IMG/VR virus record: IMGVR_UViG_3300025000_000326
Span: 1 to 30,215 of that record
DNA length: 30,215 bases
From: a virus
Direction: 5' to 3' (one strand)
The notes under the pieces were generated by a model. The model saw only the letters and a list, made by a program, of their open reading frames with translations, searched no databases and was not told the origin of the DNA. The translations under genes were made by a program, and so were the position numbers. Within the stretch, counting starts at the first letter, position 1, and each line of letters opens with the position of its first letter. Shown here one piece after another: positions 6,081 through 27,225 of the stretch.

Positions 6081-6388
6081 AGTTCCTTCTCCACAGTCAG
6101 GCGGGTATCCGCGGTGAAACGCTCTCCGCTGTCATCCACGGTCAGGGTTAGAGACCAGTAGCGTATTATCCCAGGCCAGCGGCGGTGGCTCTCAGTAATG
6201 CTGGCAAGGCTCCCCGTCGGCATGTATGTGTGGGCCGGGCACTGGCAAGCGATCAGGTCCCGGTCTGTGCCGTTGTAGTCGATCTCCCGCCGCGCTCGGG
6301 CTACGCCCGCCTGATCCGTCGTGAGCAACTCGTCGAGTATATCTGGCCCTTGGAAGTCGGCGGGCTGCCGCTGGACGGTAATCCGCAT
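6077..6388 (-). CDS. Small tail protein, unrecognised (103 aa)
   Basis: The start overlaps the stop of the upstream gene as TAATG, which supports coupling. The protein has an N-terminal strand (MRITVQRQPADF), a helical part rich in charge (DQAGVARARREIDY) and a C-terminal strand pair (YWSLTLTVDD, RFTADTRLTVEKEL). Two Cys are close together (CQC, about residues 48-50). No family was recognised. The gene lies between a hub-like protein group and the fibre group. Confidence 0.7.
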   Translation of the reverse strand: MRITVQRQPADFQGPDILDELLTTDQAGVARARREIDYNGTDRDLIACQCPAHTYMPTGSLASITESHRRWPGIIRYWSLTLTVDDSGERFTADTRLTVEKEL

Positions 6389-6894
6389 TAGTTTATCTCC
6401 TCATACTCAATGACGATATCAGTCGGAAAGTCCTCCCCGTCCGTGATCGCTGCTACGGCCGGGCGGTGGGAGTACTGGACAAAGTTGACAGGATAGGATA
6501 CCTCGCCCAGGCACGGAGCCAGATCAGCCTGAACCTGCCGGCCATCTAAGAAAAGGTTACTCGAGCGCCCGAACCATTCCGCGGATAACGCCCCGGCGGG
6601 AATGTAACCAAGGTCCAGAAGGTGGGCGGGGTGCTGGAAAGACAGCTCTTCCTTCCTAGTCCGTACCACGGGGCCTACCAACTGGATGTCGCCGTCGTCG
6701 GTAGCGCGTAGTCCGAGGACTCTTATTTTTGCTGGGTCGTAGTGCAGCAGGAAATACACGACATCCCCAGGCGCAAACGACGACCGCTCTTCTCCCTCGG
6801 CGTCAAGGTGCATCTGGCCGTCAATCTCAGTATGTAAGGAATCAGAAGAATTACCTTGACCAAAAGTATAGACGGATGTCAGGGTATCACTCAT
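6388..6894 (-). CDS. Tail-tip accessory protein, unrecognised (168 aa)
   Basis: It overlaps the hub-like gene upstream as ATGA. The protein is acidic and mostly beta: SVYTFGQG, then APGDVVYFLLHYDPAKIRVL, IQLVGPVVRTRKEEL and a C-terminal TDIVIEYEEIN. The GDVVYFLLHYDP segment has the look of a repeat-free beta-barrel. Three of the small genes downstream of the hub share such short beta-only architecture. No function can be assigned beyond a virion tail role from context. Confidence 0.72.
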   Translation of the reverse strand: MSDTLTSVYTFGQGNSSDSLHTEIDGQMHLDAEGEERSSFAPGDVVYFLLHYDPAKIRVLGLRATDDGDIQLVGPVVRTRKEELSFQHPAHLLDLGYIPAGALSAEWFGRSSNLFLDGRQVQADLAPCLGEVSYPVNFVQYSHRPAVAAITDGEDFPTDIVIEYEEIN

Positions 6895-8975
6895 AATAGA
6901 ACCAACCTCGGAAAGAATTGTACGTCTTCAGCAGTGTAATCAAAAACAGAAAACCGCCAATATTTAGTCACATAGGTGAGGTACAACAAAGAGTTACCAG
7001 CCGTAGCCGTGGTCACGGTACCATCTTCCTTGACTGTGACTGCCCCTAAATCGGTCTCATTGTAGTCGTGGAAAACCTCCCCGTAATATGGCTTTGCGGT
7101 TTGTCCCGCGCCGCCGACAACCTCAATACGCTCAGACGTTATCGTTTCTTCCTTTATACCTTGGTCGATTACCATGACCCGGGCGGGGGCACCAGAGTGG
7201 TCGAGGGCAATTTTGTATCTCTCATCCCATGGCACCTGATAGACCTGGTACTCGCCCTCCCACGGGCCTATGGTCGACGACTCCATCCTCAACCCATCCC
7301 CAGACAGCTGCTGGTCGGACACCATGAAAATGTTGTAGCCAGGCCGCGATTCGGGAGCGCCATCGATCTGAAAAAAGTCATCCTGGTCAGTCAGGTGATA
7401 GTCGGGCTCCGCCTCGGCCCACTGGTTGACCGAGACCGGGTACTCCGGCTCACAGACCAACATATTCTCCGGATCAGTTTGGATCACGCCGCCGACAGCC
7501 TCAACAATCCGGCGGATAACACCGATCGCGGCGTCGCCCTCGTTCACGGCCAGACGCCCGGGCGAAATAAACCAGTCGACCAGCCGCCAGGAAACAGTAA
7601 ACGGCGCCGCCAGGGTCGCGACCAGGGCCGAGGCCATGCCGGACAATTCTCCCGCGGCCAGCCGGCTATGCGGCGTATCGAGCAGTTTGGTTCGACTCAC
7701 TAGCGGCACCACATAGGTGGTCAACCCGGGCTGCCTGGTCTCCCGGGGCACCTCCGGCATCAGGTGACACTGCCAGCCATCGACGGTGAGCACCACCTCC
7801 GAGCTGTACTTCTTGTAGTCGAGGTACTCCGTCTCGTCATAGAGCTGTAGCTCTCCGGCAATAAAATATTGTCCGCGGTCCTGCTCAATATTGATGTTGG
7901 CGTAGTATGTATGGGCTTTGCCGTCGCACTTAACAGTGATATCAAATCTCTGCACCAAAGCCTCGCCGGCGGCGATGACATAAAGCATATCCAGGACCTG
8001 GCGGACCAGGTCTTTGTCCTGCAGGTCATTGAGCTGGTCGAGGACAGCCCGGACTTTGCCTTCGGATATCGAGTAATTTTGGTCCAGGGCTTGGCGTAGG
8101 CCGGCGTGCAGATTGTAGAGCTGGTTAAGGGCTGCGCGGTAGCGTGGGGTGTTGCCGTAGAGCTGGTCGAGGTTCCGGCGGATCTTGGCGGCGCCTGCAT
8201 ATCGTTGATCAAGGATTGCGCGGAGATTTGGAGCATCCCCATAATATTGAGTAAAAGCTGCCAATAACCGTAAACCGTAAATTTGATCAAGTTGTGCGAC
8301 AAAACTAGACGTGAAGGCGTATTGTTGTTCGAGAATGGTTCTATTTATATTTAACAACATACCGTATGGCATTTCCAAACAAGCCCTGACAGCACTGGTT
8401 GGCGGCGCTGGTGCATCAGACCACGGCACAAAATCCGTAGGTGCGGCATAAAGTTGATTATCCGAACCAGATAGGATCTTGTATGCCATCGCAGTCTCTG
8501 ATCCACTGACATACGGCATCGCCGCAACATGCAGTTCCCCCGCCGCCATGGTCATTATCTGATTTATGCCGGCCGTTGGATCCCCGCTATTTGCCCAGGC
8601 ACCCCCATTTTTCCTTCCCCATATTTTCCCTGTGTCAGCATCGACGGCAAAACCGAGGATATCTCCAGCTACCCACCCCCCTAAAGTGATAGCGATACCA
8701 GAAGGAAAAGCGTTACCACCACTGGCCCAACTGGCAGAACTCGAATCTCCTGCCTGGCCTGGAAAACTATCAGGGGATAATGCTGGAGTGGCAAAACCGA
8801 TGACAGAATTAGAGTCAATGGCACCAATAGGCTGTATCTCGACATACCATTTTCCCGCGGAATGGCCCAGGGTAGATTGACTCGAACCTATGTCTGAGGC
8901 ACTGTTCCACAAAATTAGACCGTCGAGACTCTTACGATGCGTCGATTTGCCAAGTGTCCACGTATCCAGTGTCAT
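6891..8975 (-). CDS. Tail hub/tip protein with SPRY domain and LDQxY repeats (694 aa)
   Basis: Three parts are visible. Residues about 20-165 form a SPRY-like beta-sandwich: GKWYVEIQPI, then SVIGFATP, GDILGFAVDADTGKIW and KNGGAW, as found in several phage fibre proteins. Residues about 200-343 are a run of roughly ten degenerate copies of LDQxYxxxxxxRxx, period mostly 14. Residues about 360-694 resemble a tail hub or tip protein: IRRIVEAVGGVIQTDPEN, then EPEYPVSVNQW, then YHLTDQDDFFQIDGAPE and GYNIFMVSD. That order of Cys-less beta motifs is common in gpJ/late-D-like hubs that hold the tip together. The protein probably closes the tail tip and contacts the host. Its start overlaps the zinc-ribbon gene as ATGA. 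Confidence 0.78.
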   Translation of the reverse strand: MTLDTWTLGKSTHRKSLDGLILWNSASDIGSSQSTLGHSAGKWYVEIQPIGAIDSNSVIGFATPALSPDSFPGQAGDSSSASWASGGNAFPSGIAITLGGWVAGDILGFAVDADTGKIWGRKNGGAWANSGDPTAGINQIMTMAAGELHVAAMPYVSGSETAMAYKILSGSDNQLYAAPTDFVPWSDAPAPPTSAVRACLEMPYGMLLNINRTILEQQYAFTSSFVAQLDQIYGLRLLAAFTQYYGDAPNLRAILDQRYAGAAKIRRNLDQLYGNTPRYRAALNQLYNLHAGLRQALDQNYSISEGKVRAVLDQLNDLQDKDLVRQVLDMLYVIAAGEALVQRFDITVKCDGKAHTYYANINIEQDRGQYFIAGELQLYDETEYLDYKKYSSEVVLTVDGWQCHLMPEVPRETRQPGLTTYVVPLVSRTKLLDTPHSRLAAGELSGMASALVATLAAPFTVSWRLVDWFISPGRLAVNEGDAAIGVIRRIVEAVGGVIQTDPENMLVCEPEYPVSVNQWAEAEPDYHLTDQDDFFQIDGAPESRPGYNIFMVSDQQLSGDGLRMESSTIGPWEGEYQVYQVPWDERYKIALDHSGAPARVMVIDQGIKEETITSERIEVVGGAGQTAKPYYGEVFHDYNETDLGAVTVKEDGTVTTATAGNSLLYLTYVTKYWRFSVFDYTAEDVQFFPRLVLL
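7947..8378 (-). repeat. Protein repeat array, ~10 copies of LDQxY motif
   Basis: This stretch encodes residues about 200-343 of the hub-like protein. Clear copies are LDQRYAGAAKIRRN, LDQLYGNTPRYRAA, LNQLYNLHAGLRQA and LDQNYSISEGKVRAV. Weaker copies lie on both sides (LEMPY, LEQQY, LDQIY, FTQYY, LDQLN, LDMLY). Spacing runs from 12 to 16 residues and is mostly 14. Leu at position 1, Gln at 3, Tyr at 5 and Arg near 12 are the conserved positions. The DNA copies have diverged, so the array is old rather than a fresh slippage product. Confidence 0.8.
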
Positions 8976-9340
8976 CTCTGCAGCTCCGTCACGGATTTAA
9001 TGCTCAAGGAGGTGTACATGCAGGCACGGTTGCCGCATTCAAGTGAGGTTTTCCAATTGCCGCCAATATTGGTGCAGCGGGAAATATTAACTGGTCGTAA
9101 TATCAAGAGAGACCCACACTCATGGCATGTCAGAACTGGAGGTGCTTTCTTCCGGGGAGGGAGGGCGGTTTCGGTCAAATGAGCCCTGCTCTCAAAGTCT
9201 TTCTGCAATATGACCACTATATCATTCATATTCAGGCCGAAAGTGTCAGCCTCTATTGCCAAAGTGAGCAACATAACTTTTTGCTGCTCACTGAATGGTC
9301 GTAAAAAATCAGCCGCCAGTTTGTCTGGTTTATCGGTCAT
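8972..9340 (-). CDS. Zinc-ribbon tail-region protein, unrecognised (122 aa)
   Basis: I chose the ATG at 9338-9340, which overlaps the previous stop as ATGA; an in-frame upstream start is less likely. Residues 1-65 are helical (DKLAADFLRPFSEQQKVMLL, then ADTFGLNMNDIVVILQKDF). A C-terminal zinc-ribbon-like part follows: CHECGSLL, SRCTN, then SLECGNRACMYTSLS. There are five Cys, with C-x2-C and C-x4-C pairs plausible as metal ligands. The layout resembles other small zinc-finger proteins in phage structural regions, such as Com-like proteins, but the sequence match is weak. It sits between the Cys-rich triplet and the hub gene, so it could be a tail assembly factor. Confidence 0.72.
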   Translation of the reverse strand: MTDKPDKLAADFLRPFSEQQKVMLLTLAIEADTFGLNMNDIVVILQKDFESRAHLTETALPPRKKAPPVLTCHECGSLLILRPVNISRCTNIGGNWKTSLECGNRACMYTSLSIKSVTELQR

Positions 9341-11319
9341 GGGCACACCCACTCAGCTACAAATTGTAAAAATTCAGCCATCCCGATAGGATCGTTTCCT
9401 GGCCGCAGGCAGTATCCGTTTATTAGTTCGCCCACAAATGGATGATCACAGGGCTTGTGCAAACTGCCGTGGTCGGTGCCACATGGGCACATATCGCACG
9501 GTGCCGCCGGATTCAGCGTGGTGGTCCGCACGTCGGATATTATATCCAGCACATTCGTTAAGGTGCGATAAACAAATCTGTTATTATAGATCGACTGGTA
9601 CACGAGGACGCTATTAGCCGTACTCCAGCCGGCCACCGGTGCGCACTCTTGACCAGCCTCGGGGCCCACCGTTTCCCATTTTCCTACCGTGATTTTTACC
9701 TGGCACGTTGCCACATCAGCGCAAGAGTCGCTGACCGCCACCGTAGCTTGGCCACAAGCATCCAGCGGCACATAAAACAAGCCCCCGCCGGCGTTAATCA
9801 GAGTGTCTGAGCTGTACGTATACGGCGCGACACCTCCGGTGTGGTAGACCACCACATACCCCCCAGGGGCCACGACCATCGACTCACAGTTTGTTATTTC
9901 TAAAGGGACAGCATCGCCACTTAACGGCATCGTCAGCACGCTGCAGCCGTCAGCCAATCTCACCATGTTATTTGCACAGGCACCAGAAGCGGCAAACACC
10001 CACTGTTCCGCCCCCCCGCGAATAACATTACTGCCATTAACAAACCTAAGGGCAGCACTTGCGGTCCAGACCCACGACCCAACCTTTGATCCATCCCCTC
10101 CAGATGTTTTCAGCAAAACTGAACCGCCTGCGGAAATAGATGTAGGATTGTCTGGATGCGCTTCAAGGGGTGGTATATCATCACAACAGGCCTTACGATC
10201 GACTCGTAAATGATAATAAACAGTCCCGCAGCCTTCAGCACCACTAGGTGCCACAGGGTGAAATGACGTATTCGGATTAATAGCCAAATACTTATCTATC
10301 ACCTCTTGCGGCAGACTTTTCCCGCCAGGGTTTGGCTCAGTCCACTCCAGGCAAGATGGCGGGGGCGGTGTAGGGTCGTAATGGCAGCAAATAGCCTTAT
10401 ATGTTTCCTGTGAGGCCAACTTATCATCCCATCGTTGACAGCCATACTCCGGGGGCGGCGGAGGTTCCGGCAGGGGACCTTCGTCATCATCATCATCATC
10501 ATCATCAGTAGTACCAACCCCACCGTCTTCCATATATCCACACAGCCGCAGTAGATAATCGGCAGTGATAGTGTCGTCTCCGGCCGGTGCCTGGATGTCG
10601 CCTTGAAACACCATCATATGGTAAAACGCCAAAAGCTTAACATCCTGCGGCATCCCCAACTCCGACCCCGGAGAGTTGGGGATGCCGGGAATTTCAAAGG
10701 TGATCAAATCGTACTGGGTGGCAAACTCAACCCTGATGGTTCCAGTAACCGATTCCGTCCAATACAGAGTATTGCCAGACCGCTTTATTTCCGGAGCCTC
10801 AACAATACCTGATGCGCCGATCACCAACCCGAGCCAGCCGGCGGCAAAGGGGCCGTCAACCGGATATTCCAATTCAACAGACGTGTCGCCCTTGATGTCG
10901 ATGTTGAGGCTGAGCTGCTCCGAGGCAACCACGGTCTGCACCACTTCACCAGCCGATAACACCAGCCGATAACCCTCTGCGGGATGGCTACGATACAGGC
11001 GGGCGGTCGCGGTGTAGTCGCCGGACAAGGCCCTGCGACAGGCCAGCAGACCATCGCCAAACACCTCCCTGGCGGCGCTGAGCAATTTCTCTTCGTCAGG
11101 CCCGGCCGCTGTTTCTTCCTCTGGTTCCGCGCTATTCTCATCTTCAATTACGATACAGGGATCAATATCATAGAGCGCGTCCGCCACCTCTGCCACGTCC
11201 CCGGTGGTGGCCAGGTCATCCTCCCGTTCCTGCTCTATCCGCAGCCAATACGACGGATTGACCGCAGAGTCCGGCACGTCAGAGGCGCGCTCGATGCGCA
11301 GCGACATAAACCCGCTCAT
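9337..11319 (-). CDS. Distal tail protein, paralog 3, Cys-rich with poly-Asp and Ig-like region (660 aa)
   Basis: The ATG at 11317-11319 overlaps the upstream stop as ATGA. The N-terminus MSGFMSLRIERASD and SYWLRIEQERED match the other two paralogs upstream. Residues about 90-250 are beta-rich, then comes a run of eight Asp (about 271-278), a Pro-rich segment (PLPEPPPPPEYG) and a second one (DPTPPPPSC). The C-terminal half has about 20 Cys, including CC pairs and CDMCPC. An Ig-like/BIG-type pattern follows the Pro-rich part (SISAGGSVLLKTSGGDG, then APGGYVVVYHTGGVAPYTYS). The region may bind metal or form disulphides after release. No family was recognised. It is probably a tail-tip component. 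Confidence 0.75.
   Translation of the reverse strand: MSGFMSLRIERASDVPDSAVNPSYWLRIEQEREDDLATTGDVAEVADALYDIDPCIVIEDENSAEPEEETAAGPDEEKLLSAAREVFGDGLLACRRALSGDYTATARLYRSHPAEGYRLVLSAGEVVQTVVASEQLSLNIDIKGDTSVELEYPVDGPFAAGWLGLVIGASGIVEAPEIKRSGNTLYWTESVTGTIRVEFATQYDLITFEIPGIPNSPGSELGMPQDVKLLAFYHMMVFQGDIQAPAGDDTITADYLLRLCGYMEDGGVGTTDDDDDDDDEGPLPEPPPPPEYGCQRWDDKLASQETYKAICCHYDPTPPPPSCLEWTEPNPGGKSLPQEVIDKYLAINPNTSFHPVAPSGAEGCGTVYYHLRVDRKACCDDIPPLEAHPDNPTSISAGGSVLLKTSGGDGSKVGSWVWTASAALRFVNGSNVIRGGAEQWVFAASGACANNMVRLADGCSVLTMPLSGDAVPLEITNCESMVVAPGGYVVVYHTGGVAPYTYSSDTLINAGGGLFYVPLDACGQATVAVSDSCADVATCQVKITVGKWETVGPEAGQECAPVAGWSTANSVLVYQSIYNNRFVYRTLTNVLDIISDVRTTTLNPAAPCDMCPCGTDHGSLHKPCDHPFVGELINGYCLRPGNDPIGMAEFLQFVAEWVCP
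10483..10507. repeat. Trinucleotide microsatellite (GAT on - strand)
   Basis: Consecutive GAT codons ending in GAC encode the eight-Asp run of the Cys-rich tail protein. Trinucleotide runs like this can change length in whole codons by slippage without breaking the frame, so the length of the acidic linker could vary between isolates. Confidence 0.85.
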
Positions 11320-12269
11320 AATAACCCCCTCAACCACGGACCAGGATCTTGCTGCAACTCAACCCGGGTGCAATACCGCTGCGGATCGAGACCGTTACAA
11401 ACCTTCAGCACTTCCCCGGTACAGGTGGAGTAATACACCTGGGTGCTGCTCACCTCATGACACCAATCCAAAACAAAAAGGGGATTGCCGGGACACCAGT
11501 TGAGTATATCCAGCACGCACTGCGGCACTTCCAGACGGAGTTGGTCCGTGTCGGTGTTATTGTTTTTTACCCCCAGCCAGAAGGCGGTAACAGTGGCCTC
11601 GATATTGGATATCTTATTACTGTTGGTGGTGTTTTCCGGCAGTTGGTTGATAAAGGTTTTGTCCCCCTGAACCTGCTCAGGAGCCGGCGCGTTCGGCTCA
11701 TTCCACAGGCCCTTGTCAACCTCAACCGCCAGAACATGGTAACCGCCCACCGCTTTGCCGGAGATGCGCAACGCCCCGAAGATCTCATGGCTCAGCTTAA
11801 GATGGTTGCCCATGTTGACAACCTCCGGCTCCTCGATCTGCTCGCCGTATCGATCATAAACCGGTGTTTCCCACACCACCGTCACGTCCACCATATAGCA
11901 TTCCAGGTCGATGATCGTGGCGTTATTCGCAAAAGCGGAAAACTCGCGGGGCAGCTCAACCAGTTGCTGCGGTCCGACCTGGCCGATAGTGGTGGTCAAT
12001 TGGTACGGCAATTCTGGATCTGATGGCCAGGCATAAAAACCAAGGAAAAAACGGACAACTGTTCCGTCAAATTCAACAGGGCAACCTGACATCCTCACCC
12101 GACTTGCCGACTTTCCGGAGGCGGCATACATCCAAGAGCGGTATAGATCGGCCAGGCTTGCATAACGCTGGGTTTTGGCCGGCACAATCTGTTCCAGCCG
12201 TACCCATAGATTGCCGGCAGTACCTTGGCCTGCAGATCTGGTGATGCGCAGAGATGCGTATTCGCTCAT
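11316..12269 (-). CDS. Distal tail protein, paralog 2, Cys-rich C-terminus (317 aa)
   Basis: The ATG at 12267-12269 overlaps the previous stop as ATGA. The start MSEYASLRITRSAGQG followed by NLWVRLEQ repeats the pattern of its two neighbours. Around residues 170-200 a stretch LKLSHEIFGALRIS then YHVLAVEV is similar in position to RIAQAVYGTMLVIYRVVRHS in paralog 1. The last 80 residues hold several Cys (QCVLDILNWC, DWCHEV, STCTGEVLKVC, RYC). No known family matches. The three paralogs are consecutive, so they probably form one layer or a heteromeric part of the tail tip. Confidence 0.75.
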   Translation of the reverse strand: MSEYASLRITRSAGQGTAGNLWVRLEQIVPAKTQRYASLADLYRSWMYAASGKSASRVRMSGCPVEFDGTVVRFFLGFYAWPSDPELPYQLTTTIGQVGPQQLVELPREFSAFANNATIIDLECYMVDVTVVWETPVYDRYGEQIEEPEVVNMGNHLKLSHEIFGALRISGKAVGGYHVLAVEVDKGLWNEPNAPAPEQVQGDKTFINQLPENTTNSNKISNIEATVTAFWLGVKNNNTDTDQLRLEVPQCVLDILNWCPGNPLFVLDWCHEVSSTQVYYSTCTGEVLKVCNGLDPQRYCTRVELQQDPGPWLRGLL

Positions 12270-13030
12270 GATACCGTCCCGTCGCAATAGTCGACATCAT
12301 AATGCAGATCCTCAGGTCGCACGGATGGCGGCCTGCAGCCATCCGGGCTGTCGATGTCCACATCGTCGCCGTTCAGGTTGCAGCGCCCGCCGTTCTCGAC
12401 AGCCGGCGGCAGCTCATACGCACAATAGTTGGTACCGCCAGGCCATACGGCATAGATATAACTCTGGTACCTATTTTCAGCCGCCTCCGGCCGGGGAGAG
12501 ATGGTCGCCGCATAGCTATGCCGAACAACTCGATATATAACCAGCATGGTGCCGTATACGGCCTGCGCAATCCGGACCCGGCCATCAGTAATACTCACTA
12601 CCGGCCGGGGCAACGCTTCACCGTCAACGGCGAAGGCGTCGGTCACCCACTCCGCGGAAAGAATCTCCCTGGTAGGGTAGCGAAGCGCAGGCTCGGTTAC
12701 GCCCTGAATCTGTAGCAGCTCGGCATAGACCAGGTCGGTGATAACCCTCGGCCCCAACACTCCGTGACTGATCCCAAGGTGGTACCCGAGATCCGGAGGA
12801 TCTGGATAGGCGAAGATATCGCTGGAGACATTGCCCTCCTCATCAACCCCACACCTTTTCTCAACTCCACTTTCCTCACCAAACAGCAACCCGTGCAAAT
12901 AGGCGACCACACCCCCTTTGGTCAGCATCCCGATATACGGGTCCCAACGTTCCTGTTCGAGGAGGATTCGATTCTTCGTCTCCGATCTAGCAAGACTTCG
13001 AGTTATGCGAAATGGCAAAAACTCTGACAT
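12266..13030 (-). CDS. Distal tail protein, paralog 1, Cys-containing C-terminus (254 aa)
   Basis: I chose the ATG at 13028-13030, which overlaps the upstream TAA as TAATG; the longer open frame from 13066 would add twelve residues with no support. The start MSEFLPFRITRSLA then NRILLEQERWD is shared with the next two genes. The middle is a beta-rich domain (RVRIAQAVYGTMLVIYRVV). The C-terminus has Cys at NYC, GRC, DGC and DYC in about 50 residues and an acidic NGDDVDIDSPDG. It is the shortest member of the array. Role by context: tail tip. Confidence 0.75.
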   Translation of the reverse strand: MSEFLPFRITRSLARSETKNRILLEQERWDPYIGMLTKGGVVAYLHGLLFGEESGVEKRCGVDEEGNVSSDIFAYPDPPDLGYHLGISHGVLGPRVITDLVYAELLQIQGVTEPALRYPTREILSAEWVTDAFAVDGEALPRPVVSITDGRVRIAQAVYGTMLVIYRVVRHSYAATISPRPEAAENRYQSYIYAVWPGGTNYCAYELPPAVENGGRCNLNGDDVDIDSPDGCRPPSVRPEDLHYDVDYCDGTVS

Positions 13031-14058
13031 TAGCTTGCCGCCTCGCCAGCCAAAACTTGAGTGCATTTGTTATTAGCGAGCGAGGCCGAACCTGCCGGGA
13101 CAATCCGGCACTGCCCCTGCGGAATGCGGGCAGGGTGAGTGGTAAAGGTCACGGTGTCGCCTGCCTGCCAGGTGCCGCCCCAGAATCCCGCCTCGATAGT
13201 GAAATACGGCCTGGTGAAATCGGGATTAGACGGGGCAAAGTCCGTGCCGGTGTCTCCAGACCCCAACGTGCCGGCAATGGAATCTCCGGTAGCAGTAAAA
13301 TGTGTAGCATCGGTAAAAGTGAGGGCAATGTCCTCGTCAACCGTGCCCTGGTTGTCGAGGATGAGCGGATACGATCCGGCATCGATGGTCCCGGCGGTGG
13401 AGGTCTTGAACGGAGCGGTGTTGCTCGGCTGCACGTCGCCAGGCTCCAGCAACGAGCTGACCCGCACCGAGGCCTGAGTGTACGGCGGCGTCGAGGCGGT
13501 AAAGGCGGTGACAAACTCCTCAGTAACAGTGATGGTTACATCCAGGCCGACATAGGTTGGCGTGCCGGAGATGGTTTTTACCTCCTCCGCGCCATTTGTC
13601 GCCGTGGCCGACGTATGGCTGCAGACCTTAATTTTATAGCCGTCCTTAAAGATGTCTTTCGCACCGCCGGGCAAGAGCGCGGCATTTTTCACCGTGACCA
13701 CAAAGGTCAAAGCGCCGATGGCGATGTTGTTTTTCAGGTAGGCAGTCCCGACTAGGTCGGCCGTGGCTATCTCCGCCTCCAGCCCAGCCTCGGTGGTACG
13801 TTGTCCGGAGAGCCACTTCACCACATAATCGTCAGGTGAAATCGTCGGCGCGTCGTGGTAGTCTTCCGGATCGAGCAGGGGAAGGTTGTCGGTATTGGTC
13901 AAACCGGCAAAGGTTTTTTTATAGGTGTCTAACCCCGCCGCACGCTGGGCACTAGTGACATGGGGAAAAACGTTCTGCACCACTCCGGAGGTGATGACAG
14001 TTGCCCCGCACCGACCATTGGCCAGCGGACGAAACCATTTAATATCAGTTGATAGCAT
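13030..14058 (-). CDS. Distal tail protein with tail-tube-like C-terminal domain (342 aa)
   Basis: The ATG is 1 base downstream of the previous TAG. Residues about 1-110 have no recognised family. Residues about 112-204 look like a beta-sandwich ending YTQASVRVSS, similar in pattern to an inserted domain in the capsid genes. Residues about 241-310 closely match the tail tube protein: DIALTFTDATHF, then FAPSNPDFTRPYFTIEAGFW and GTWQAGDTVTFTT here, against DIWTIVFTGAANY, FAPDNGGNPYFTIPANHF and GTWAADQEQVFATT there. A protein that copies a tube domain and sits after the tape measure may cap or extend the tube at the tip. The C-terminal Cys (CRIV, NKCTQ) are few. Confidence 0.75.
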   Translation of the reverse strand: MLSTDIKWFRPLANGRCGATVITSGVVQNVFPHVTSAQRAAGLDTYKKTFAGLTNTDNLPLLDPEDYHDAPTISPDDYVVKWLSGQRTTEAGLEAEIATADLVGTAYLKNNIAIGALTFVVTVKNAALLPGGAKDIFKDGYKIKVCSHTSATATNGAEEVKTISGTPTYVGLDVTITVTEEFVTAFTASTPPYTQASVRVSSLLEPGDVQPSNTAPFKTSTAGTIDAGSYPLILDNQGTVDEDIALTFTDATHFTATGDSIAGTLGSGDTGTDFAPSNPDFTRPYFTIEAGFWGGTWQAGDTVTFTTHPARIPQGQCRIVPAGSASLANNKCTQVLAGEAAS

Positions 14059-20950: not shown

Positions 20951-21850
20951 TCAGCCGCCAAGGAACAGGATCTGGCCGTTCGGCATGTTGTTCCACGCGG
21001 CGTTGCCGCCAGTAGTATCCTCACTGGCGCCCATGGACTTAATTGTCATGGTGACCGCCGCCGCGTCTTCGGGCTGCTGATCGAGGTTCAAGCTCGAAGT
21101 GATATTCGCCCGAGGGAAAACAATTACCATCGAGTAGGCTGGGTTCGGGAAGGTGTATACAGCCTCGACCCTCAGGAATTTCGGCGCCGCCAGGGTGCCA
21201 AGAGGGATATTCCCGAGATGAGCGTTGGTGTAGGCGCTGGTTCCGGAAACAAAAGCTGTAGTGGCGAATACCTGTTCCTGGTCAGCTGCCCAGGTACCAG
21301 TAAAGTGGTTGGCAGGGATGGTGAAGTAGGGGTTACCACCATTGTCCGGAGCGAACGCGGAGGTAATAGCAGAGGTGCCGACGTACCCCGTTATCCTGCC
21401 ATAAACCTTGTAGTTGGCGGCGCCAGTAAAAACTATCGTCCAGATGTCGGTGATAACTCCACCAGCATTGGTAACCGCGATATCATCAACGACGTGAACG
21501 CCGGCAATAGTTTTGGTGGAGAGGATCGTGGCAGCCGCGGCGATATCCGCGAAAGGGTCCATACCTCGGGAAATTGCCAGGCTCTTCGGAGTGATTTCCT
21601 TGAAGGCGCATTCCAGGGTGTTGGTCTCCCGCATCGGGAACGTCGCATCCAAAGACAGCGGAAAGCCCGACTCCAGATCGAAATATTCGGTCTCGGAGTT
21701 GAAGGCGGTAGAAGCCAAGGCACCAAGGGAATCCAGGGCTGTCAGCACCGGAGTCACTGTGGCGATATGCGACGCGGACTTACCGATCCGAATTTGGCTT
21801 AAGCCAAGCTGGACGGTTGAGGCGTCTCTCGTAATAGGTCCTGTTCTCAT
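20951..21850 (-). CDS. Major tail tube protein (299 aa)
   Basis: The start has ACGGAG upstream. The protein is mostly beta, begins MRTGPITRDASTVQLGLSQI and carries ESGFPLSLDATFPMRETNTL (about 60-79), a pattern seen in tail tube proteins of siphoviruses, where the first strands build the ring. Residues about 133-200 hold the PYFTIPANHF then GTW segment shared with the distal tail protein. Position is the main support: it lies before the G/T chaperones and tape measure, and it is followed by a strong terminator, as expected for an abundant virion protein. Length is larger than lambda gpV (246), with the additional domain in the middle. Confidence 0.82.
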   Translation of the reverse strand: MRTGPITRDASTVQLGLSQIRIGKSASHIATVTPVLTALDSLGALASTAFNSETEYFDLESGFPLSLDATFPMRETNTLECAFKEITPKSLAISRGMDPFADIAAAATILSTKTIAGVHVVDDIAVTNAGGVITDIWTIVFTGAANYKVYGRITGYVGTSAITSAFAPDNGGNPYFTIPANHFTGTWAADQEQVFATTAFVSGTSAYTNAHLGNIPLGTLAAPKFLRVEAVYTFPNPAYSMVIVFPRANITSSLNLDQQPEDAAAVTMTIKSMGASEDTTGGNAAWNNMPNGQILFLGG

Positions 21851-25317: not shown

Positions 25318-26541
25318 TTAGAACACTGTCAGCACATAAGAGCAGTCCGGATGGTAAACAACCGGCAGAGACTTGTTCTGGATACGGACGATAGTGCCTT
25401 CCGGATCGAACTCGTCCTTGGTATCCATGGTCACGCCATAGTTGCCACCGAGGCCAAAAGGCGCCAGGACGTTTTCCGCTATCTTCATACCATCGGCGTT
25501 GGTGTCAGACCACATAATAAACTTGTTGTCCTTGACGATCTTCTCCCGTACCCGCACAGACGACTTGCCCAGGGCGTAAGAGCCAACCAGGGCTACAGAG
25601 AGGGTTATGGTGCCGGCACTGGTGTCGACCGCAGAAACGACCTTGTCCTCCCAGGTATTGGGTTTGGTGTCGTCGTAAAAACGCACCTTGGCACCTACCG
25701 CCACATCCTCGGCATAGGTAACGTAGATAGCGGTGTCGCCGGCGGTGGCCGCGGCGGTAAGCACGATGTCAACCTCATGGAAGTCATCAAAGACCTGCAG
25801 AGGCCCGACACCGAGCAAAGTGCCGATTACCCCCGCCGGGTTCTTGAAGAGATCCCCATCACCAAAGGCCGACTTGGCCAACAGTGCCTGGATGGTGGAA
25901 TCCAACATCAAGGTCTTCAACAGGGTGCTGTTCAAGGTACAGAACTTGGCCTTGATGCCCGCGTCATCCGCCAACACCTGGTTACCGGTAAGCACATCAT
26001 CCAGAATATTTCTGGTCGAACCGCCGTTCCACTTGTAGTTGGTCGTGAGGGTAACCAAGTGGGTGGCCGGGATACCGTAGTTAACGGTGATCCTGGTGCC
26101 GCCTTTTTCAAGATAGGAGAAGCCACCATCAAGAACAGCTTTGGCGGTCATCCACTCACGGCGCCGGTCCATCCTGGCGCGGAGTTTCTGGATCAACCTG
26201 GCAACCTGGCGCTGTCCAGTCTCCTTGGTACGGTCTGTACCCACCGCCCGCAGGTTGTTCAGCACGGACTCATCGAGGAACCCGGCCTCCTTCATATAGG
26301 CGACCTTGGCGGAGCCGTTGCCGATACCGTCACGGCCGACCTTGGGGGCGATGGCACCCGGGGCGACGAACGGGGTCATGCCGGCTGAACCGTATTCGAC
26401 CTCCCACTCGATCGAATCACTCTGTGCCCGGATTTCCGGAAACATATTGGTGAAGGTGAGAGTGGGCGCGGCCGGCAACTTCTGGACCAGCTTATTGAGT
26501 GTAGTGAGTTGGAGTTCGGGAATTCCCGCGGAACCTTTCAT
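25318..26541 (-). CDS. Major capsid protein, lambda gpE-type (407 aa)
   Basis: The ATG has AGGGG upstream. Residues about 28-100 match the N-terminal pattern of phage capsid protein E: FPEIRAQSDSIEWEVEYG, then PFVAPG and MKEAGFLDESVLNNLRAVGT. A helical part follows (RLIQKLRARMDRRREWMTAK) and strands such as RITVNYG. Residues about 262-331 look like an inserted beta domain (AGDTAIYVTYAEDVAVGAKV through SVRV) that lengthens the protein beyond lambda gpE (341). The last part (VLAPFGLGGNYGVTMDTKDE, then VVYHPDCSYVLTVF) returns to the family pattern. It assembles the head shell. It follows the decoration gene and precedes a terminator. Confidence 0.92.
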   Translation of the reverse strand: MKGSAGIPELQLTTLNKLVQKLPAAPTLTFTNMFPEIRAQSDSIEWEVEYGSAGMTPFVAPGAIAPKVGRDGIGNGSAKVAYMKEAGFLDESVLNNLRAVGTDRTKETGQRQVARLIQKLRARMDRRREWMTAKAVLDGGFSYLEKGGTRITVNYGIPATHLVTLTTNYKWNGGSTRNILDDVLTGNQVLADDAGIKAKFCTLNSTLLKTLMLDSTIQALLAKSAFGDGDLFKNPAGVIGTLLGVGPLQVFDDFHEVDIVLTAAATAGDTAIYVTYAEDVAVGAKVRFYDDTKPNTWEDKVVSAVDTSAGTITLSVALVGSYALGKSSVRVREKIVKDNKFIMWSDTNADGMKIAENVLAPFGLGGNYGVTMDTKDEFDPEGTIVRIQNKSLPVVYHPDCSYVLTVF

Positions 26542-26553
26542 ATTCGTTTCCCC

Positions 26554-27225
26554 TTATTTCAGAATGGTGAATTTGCCTCGGGAAACGGCGCCGAGGGCGG
26601 TAATAGCCGCCGCATCCATGCCCACCAAAGCGTTGGTGTACAGTACTGCGTTCGACAGAACGATCGACACGTTGGCGCCGGCGGGGGCCGGGTAGTCAGA
26701 ACTACCAGTATCTACCGCCTGATCGATTATACAGGTGGCCGCCGAGAACTTGCCGTTGGTCAAGGTCTTGTGGTAGACGTTGGCCAGCTTGGCCACGGTC
26801 GCGGTGATGTCGTTCGTCACCGTCACCTTGGTAAGCCCGGGGATCGCATCCACAACTATCGCGGTGATCGGTCCGCCGTCGGTATAGGTGTTGTCGCTAT
26901 CGGAGGAGCAGATGGTCTGACCCACTTTGAACTTCAGGGCCGCGGCGTTGGTCATGTACAAATCCGTGCCCGCTGTAACATCCGCAGCCAGGAAGGACCG
27001 TCCGACATCCGTAAGAGCAATTGTGGTCGGGATGTAGGGCACGGCGTATTCCCCATAGGTGGCCATGACCGTGCCCGCCTTCAGGGGGCCAAAACCGCCC
27101 AGGATGGTCGCGGGCAGGATAAGTGCCTGCTCCCGGTAAGAGTAAAACAACGGCGCGATTCCGGGGGTCCGCCCGGATGCGTTGAACTGCGGAGTAGATC
27201 CGCCAAGTCCGTAAGGCTGATTCAT
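26554..27225 (-). CDS. Head decoration protein, lambda gpD-like with inserted domain (223 aa)
   Basis: A strong GGAGGG precedes the ATG. Position between the protease/scaffold and the capsid gene is that of lambda gpD, the decoration protein on the capsid surface. Residues about 35-60 (LPATILGGFGPLKAGTVMAT) and the last 60 residues (SNAVLYTNALVGMDAAAITA, then GKFTILK) fit a gpD-like fold. Residues about 81-154 look like an insertion with AGTDLYMTNAAALKFKVG and a final TATVAKLANVYHKT, similar in pattern to the inserted domain of the capsid protein. Lambda gpD is 110 residues; this one is about twice that. Confidence 0.75.
   Translation of the reverse strand: MNQPYGLGGSTPQFNASGRTPGIAPLFYSYREQALILPATILGGFGPLKAGTVMATYGEYAVPYIPTTIALTDVGRSFLAADVTAGTDLYMTNAAALKFKVGQTICSSDSDNTYTDGGPITAIVVDAIPGLTKVTVTNDITATVAKLANVYHKTLTNGKFSAATCIIDQAVDTGSSDYPAPAGANVSIVLSNAVLYTNALVGMDAAAITALGAVSRGKFTILK

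Follow-up and report, generated by a model that had tools for sequence, protein, structure and literature searches.

A related beta-barrel domain predicted in both the major capsid protein and the decoration protein of a phage from IMG/VR

Lambda gpD (HDPD) adopts a beta-tulip fold and forms a trimer at threefold axes, and the I-domain of P22-type coat proteins interrupts the A-domain sheet of the HK97 fold, entering between its strands. Insertion barrels are already known in P22-like capsids and in tailspikes. In LKA1 gp49, an inserted six-stranded barrel is similar both to the P22 coat I-domain (residues 222-345) and to a V-ATPase domain, and helps form a substrate groove (PMC5701251). The barrel of the K1 lyase also resembles the P22 I-domain, with the authors' mutagenesis supporting a stabilising role (PMC8822698). 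Structural roles are described for both the P22 barrel (PMC5701804) and the K1-lyase barrel (PMC8822698). A common origin of the P22 I-domain and phage auxiliary proteins has been put forward as a possibility (PMC5701804).

The window analysed here is the whole of virus record IMGVR_UViG_3300025000_000326 (30,215 bases), with its structural genes on the minus strand; feature coordinates are collected in Table 1. The major capsid protein is of the Phage_cap_E family, with residues 13-224 matching PF03864 at E 4.4e-27 (95.5 bits against a curated cut-off of 22.9), the protein falling in PHROG 29 (major head protein), and hhalign relating it to the gpE family at 1.5e-26. The decoration gene lies upstream, between the protease and capsid genes, the equivalent of the gpD position in lambda, SPN19 and others. 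Its 223-aa product has no Pfam or PHROG match, aligns with the gpD family at P 2.7e-4 and probability 41, mainly over the N-terminal part (hhalign), and belongs to a family in which one of six members gives an HDPD Pfam match, at E 0.71. No gpD structure is among the 50 best PDB matches listed for its model. The gpD assignment is weak; a gpD-like decoration protein would probably sit as a trimer on the capsid. IMG/VR supplied the relatives used below, and a search of genome contigs for the host found no relative. Elsewhere in the window, adjacent minus-strand proteins at 1177-1959 and 1969-2781 are of similar size and appear by eye to be paralogues. On the plus strand, an ORF at 42-443 resembles, also by eye, the C-terminal portion of a tyrosine recombinase; if genuine, this would suggest a temperate phage.

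Table 1. Positions of the features discussed, in the window unless another contig is named
Feature	Positions	Strand	Basis
Major capsid protein, Phage_cap_E family (gpE-like), 407 aa	25318..26541	minus	Pfam, PHROG, hhalign
Decoration protein, gpD-like by gene position, 223 aa	26554..27225	minus	gene order and weak gpD profile match
Inserted beta-barrel of capsid protein, residues ~259-331	25549..25767	minus	profile match to decoration barrel; six predicted strands
Beta-barrel inserted in decoration protein, residues ~77-154	26764..26997	minus	profile match; model strands; common PDB targets
Charged loop of decoration barrel, about residues 112-113	26887..26892	minus	decoration protein alignment
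C-terminal domain (residues ~219-310) of tail protein 13030-14058	13129..13404	minus	hhalign P 4.6e-12 to tail-tube domain
Extra domain (residues ~104-207) of likely tail-tube protein 20951-21850	21230..21541	minus	relatives' lengths
Decoration protein gene of relative L009, compared	764-1777 (L009)		
Tail-tube protein gene of relative L009, compared	6183-7097 (L009)		

The initial annotation of this DNA described a common pattern in one segment of the capsid protein and one of the decoration protein, and profile comparison identifies the two as homologous, with bounds refined to those of Table 1. The segments align at P 1.6e-7 with probability 93.9 (hhalign), and 44 other segment pairs give probabilities of at most 22%, a maximum reached by two segments with residues in common. 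A second profile comparison of the barrels gives P 4.3e-7, a deeper alignment from a larger set of relatives gives P 7.4e-8, and whole-protein comparison keeps the register, pairing capsid residues 254-319 with decoration residues 72-141. Among 79 protein families from related contigs the two are reciprocal best non-self families, the capsid barrel scoring 27.5 with the decoration protein (next 17.4) and the decoration barrel 41.7 with the capsid (next 17.1). Reciprocal hmmsearch matches among 4536 ORFs fall at the correct positions, the best being 5.8e-5 and 7.4e-4, and a PDB sequence search with either barrel gave nothing convincing. As read from these profiles, the resemblance is homology and not chance. 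Both segments are short, beta-rich and abundant in T, V and G, a composition that could favour a chance pattern of beta-rich sequence, but neither the other segments of both proteins nor 77 further families rise above background, and the capsid and decoration models match common structures, leaving that explanation very little probability.

AlphaFold models, built from alignments of 41-42 sequences, have six strands in the capsid domain alone (pLDDT 88) and strands in the barrel segment of the full decoration protein (pLDDT 88). PDB matches listed for the capsid barrel include the tailspikes phi297 gp61, LKA1 gp49, AP22 gp54 and K1 lyase, the phage Mystique tail tube, the Chi distal tail protein, a capsid chain of Vibrio phage VP1 and V-ATPase subunits; the 50 matches listed include no P22 coat chain. 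Matches of the decoration model likewise include the K1 lyase (92 columns) and the Mystique tail tube, together with the distal tail protein of Chi and V-ATPase subunits. Judging by these common targets and by how long the match is, the barrel is taken as the part of the decoration model that is matched. Sequence profiles and common fold matches together support the presence of a related beta domain in the capsid and decoration proteins.

One close comparison is with the P22 I-domain, which the capsid barrel resembles as a predicted six-stranded barrel inserted in an HK97-fold capsid protein; the likeness is drawn by prediction and through its tailspike PDB matches, whose barrels the literature equates with the P22 I-domain. 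Against a P22-like I-domain profile the capsid barrel aligns in a sensible register at P 0.002, of suggestive significance, and the decoration barrel reaches P 0.027 against P22-like I-domains, also suggestive. The P22 I-domain spans ~124 aa with long D- and S-loops, whereas the present barrels span ~73-78 aa, the capsid insert of only ~73 aa leaving no room for such loops. A further difference is that a homologous barrel occurs here in the decoration protein too. Among the matches listed, the barrels of LKA1 gp49, phi297 gp61 and K1 lyase are the closest solved structures to the capsid barrel; those barrels are likewise inserted in another fold, theirs in tail enzymes and the present ones in shell proteins. 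Phage Ig-like (Big) domains are comparable as bolt-on beta domains reused across virion proteins, but the fold predicted here is a barrel and not a sandwich, and a Pfam search at E <= 0.1 with 42 capsid barrels and 41 decoration barrels gave no Ig/Big family, the lone exception being a weak HYR match (E 0.015). Membership of an Ig or carbohydrate-binding family was considered and dropped, no convincing Pfam match being found at the thresholds used.

The insertions lengthen both proteins, as had been noticed from the sequence: the capsid protein has 407 aa and the decoration protein 223 aa, against 338-354 aa and 110-140 aa, respectively, in lambda, SPN19 and seven other gpE-type phages. Lambda/Chi gpE and gpD (YSD1_17, YSD1_16) have the same capsid family and the same gene order of protease, decoration and capsid, but the capsid and decoration proteins of lambda, Chi-type and other gpE-type phages are too short for the barrel, and the relation of the present decoration protein to gpD is weak. 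Deleting capsid residues 259-331 raises the gpE family match from 194 to 217, and with the barrel removed the flanks join, strand VFDDFHEV then leading directly into KIVKDNKFIMWS. The capsid insert therefore occupies a single turn, placed by sequence alignment at about residues 275-279 of SPN19 gpE. In the first set of relatives, to which the counts refer, every capsid protein (59/59) and every decoration protein (55/55) carries the barrel; protein lengths in a wider set are similar. Over most of the range, conservation of the barrel is below that of the core in both proteins; saturation of dS left a codon-rate test of the barrels uninformative.

A third copy of the barrel had been suggested in residues 112-204 of the tail protein at 13030-14058, and there the profile scores are at background, a single-sequence query giving P 0.03 for the capsid barrel and 0.29 for the decoration barrel; the relatives found for a profile of this segment are only 83-100% identical. 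Residues ~154-313 of the protein match the tail-tube family at 3.1e-14, and its C-terminal domain is, by sequence, of the tail-tube extra-domain type and distinct from the shell barrel. Since the protein ends in such a domain, the resemblance is unsupported as a third shell barrel. The protein at 20951-21850 is likely the tail-tube protein, judged by gene position and resemblance and without a family match, and the ~100-aa extra domain of tail-tube proteins is optional, occurring in ~300-aa relatives and missing from those of ~205 aa. On the minus strand at 9337-13066, three successive tail-region proteins start with a similar N-terminal motif, MSGFMSLRIERA, MSEYASLRITRS and MSEFLPFRITRS, which suggests a tandem family.

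The charged loop of the decoration barrel carries nested domains of ~107-111 aa in relatives. In L009 this loop holds a second domain of ~100 aa and tail-tube type, 73.5% identical to the tail-tube domain of its own contig and at most 57% identical to others. The two L009 domains are 73% identical in DNA over 348 bases, with dN 0.21 and dS 0.84, and each copy has a higher G+C content than the remainder of its gene. The nested tail-tube-type form was found in the L009 contig only, so an assembly artefact is conceivable. Because the nested domain is closest to the phage's own tail-tube gene, domain copying between tail and head proteins probably occurs in these phages. A different insert of ~110 aa occupies the same loop in six relatives (L035, L036, L040, L044, L049 and L102); these six match each other, and match no other protein in the loci searched and no Pfam family.

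The initial annotation also spoke of a domain copied between the two shell components. This is not shown for the barrel: both copies are old, and a wider phage pool may be their source, and the only copying indicated concerns a different domain, from tail tube to decoration protein, in the one relative described above. Separate gain of the two barrels from a large pool of structural barrels in phages, with no special relation or joint role, would fit the similar barrels found in tailspikes, tail tubes and distal tail proteins; the capsid barrel also aligns, over 63 columns and at P 0.0012, with the tail assembly protein of BcepNazgul. Separate gain is nevertheless rather improbable, as each barrel is by far the best match of the other among the 79 families and both are present throughout the group. 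That the barrels are paralogues, copied within one ancestral phage and touching on the shell as a like-with-like lock, is a tentative reading, somewhat doubtful on present evidence.

We consider it fairly probable that an I-domain-type barrel provides an extra structural contact on both shell partners. One six-stranded barrel, of the type of the P22 I-domain and the tailspike insertion barrels, would be represented by homologous copies in both proteins: the capsid copy interrupts the HK97-fold protein at a single turn, and the other lies in the gpD-like decoration protein. We infer that both barrels would lie on the outer shell, a plausible exposed position, where they would supply further contacts, either from one subunit to its neighbour or from capsid to decoration protein. 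These contacts would stabilise the particle, a role put forward before for the I-domain of P22 and the barrel of the K1 lyase. The decoration-barrel loop also takes further domains, including, in one relative, a copy of the tail-tube domain.

Binding of host surfaces or glycans, raised in the initial annotation, found no direct support, the domain being fixed in every relative examined and matching structural barrels of the P22 I-domain type. As a rival to the structural-contact reading it is the weaker and, in our judgement, unlikely. It would make the barrels exposed adhesion modules that bind glycans of the host surface, a role suggested for the Ig-like domains of phages, and would be consistent with their probable place on the capsid exterior, with a conservation below that of the protein core over most of the range, with the variable inserts in the decoration-barrel loop and with the contribution of the LKA1 barrel to a substrate groove (PMC5701251). 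Against it, no carbohydrate-binding or Ig family was matched at the thresholds used, the barrel is fixed in every capsid and decoration protein examined, and the roles of the P22 (PMC5701804) and K1-lyase (PMC8822698) barrels are structural.

The literature searched holds no report of one homologous barrel in the capsid and decoration proteins of the same phages. The barrel inserted in both shell proteins of this group of uncultivated phages shows that virus shell parts can have bolt-on domains in common, and L009 appears to catch a tail-to-head domain copy before saturation of synonymous sites. The two barrels offer a concrete case in which to test whether I-domains and auxiliary proteins are linked as proposed, and the paralogue lock, if true, would bear directly on their proposed common origin (PMC5701804).
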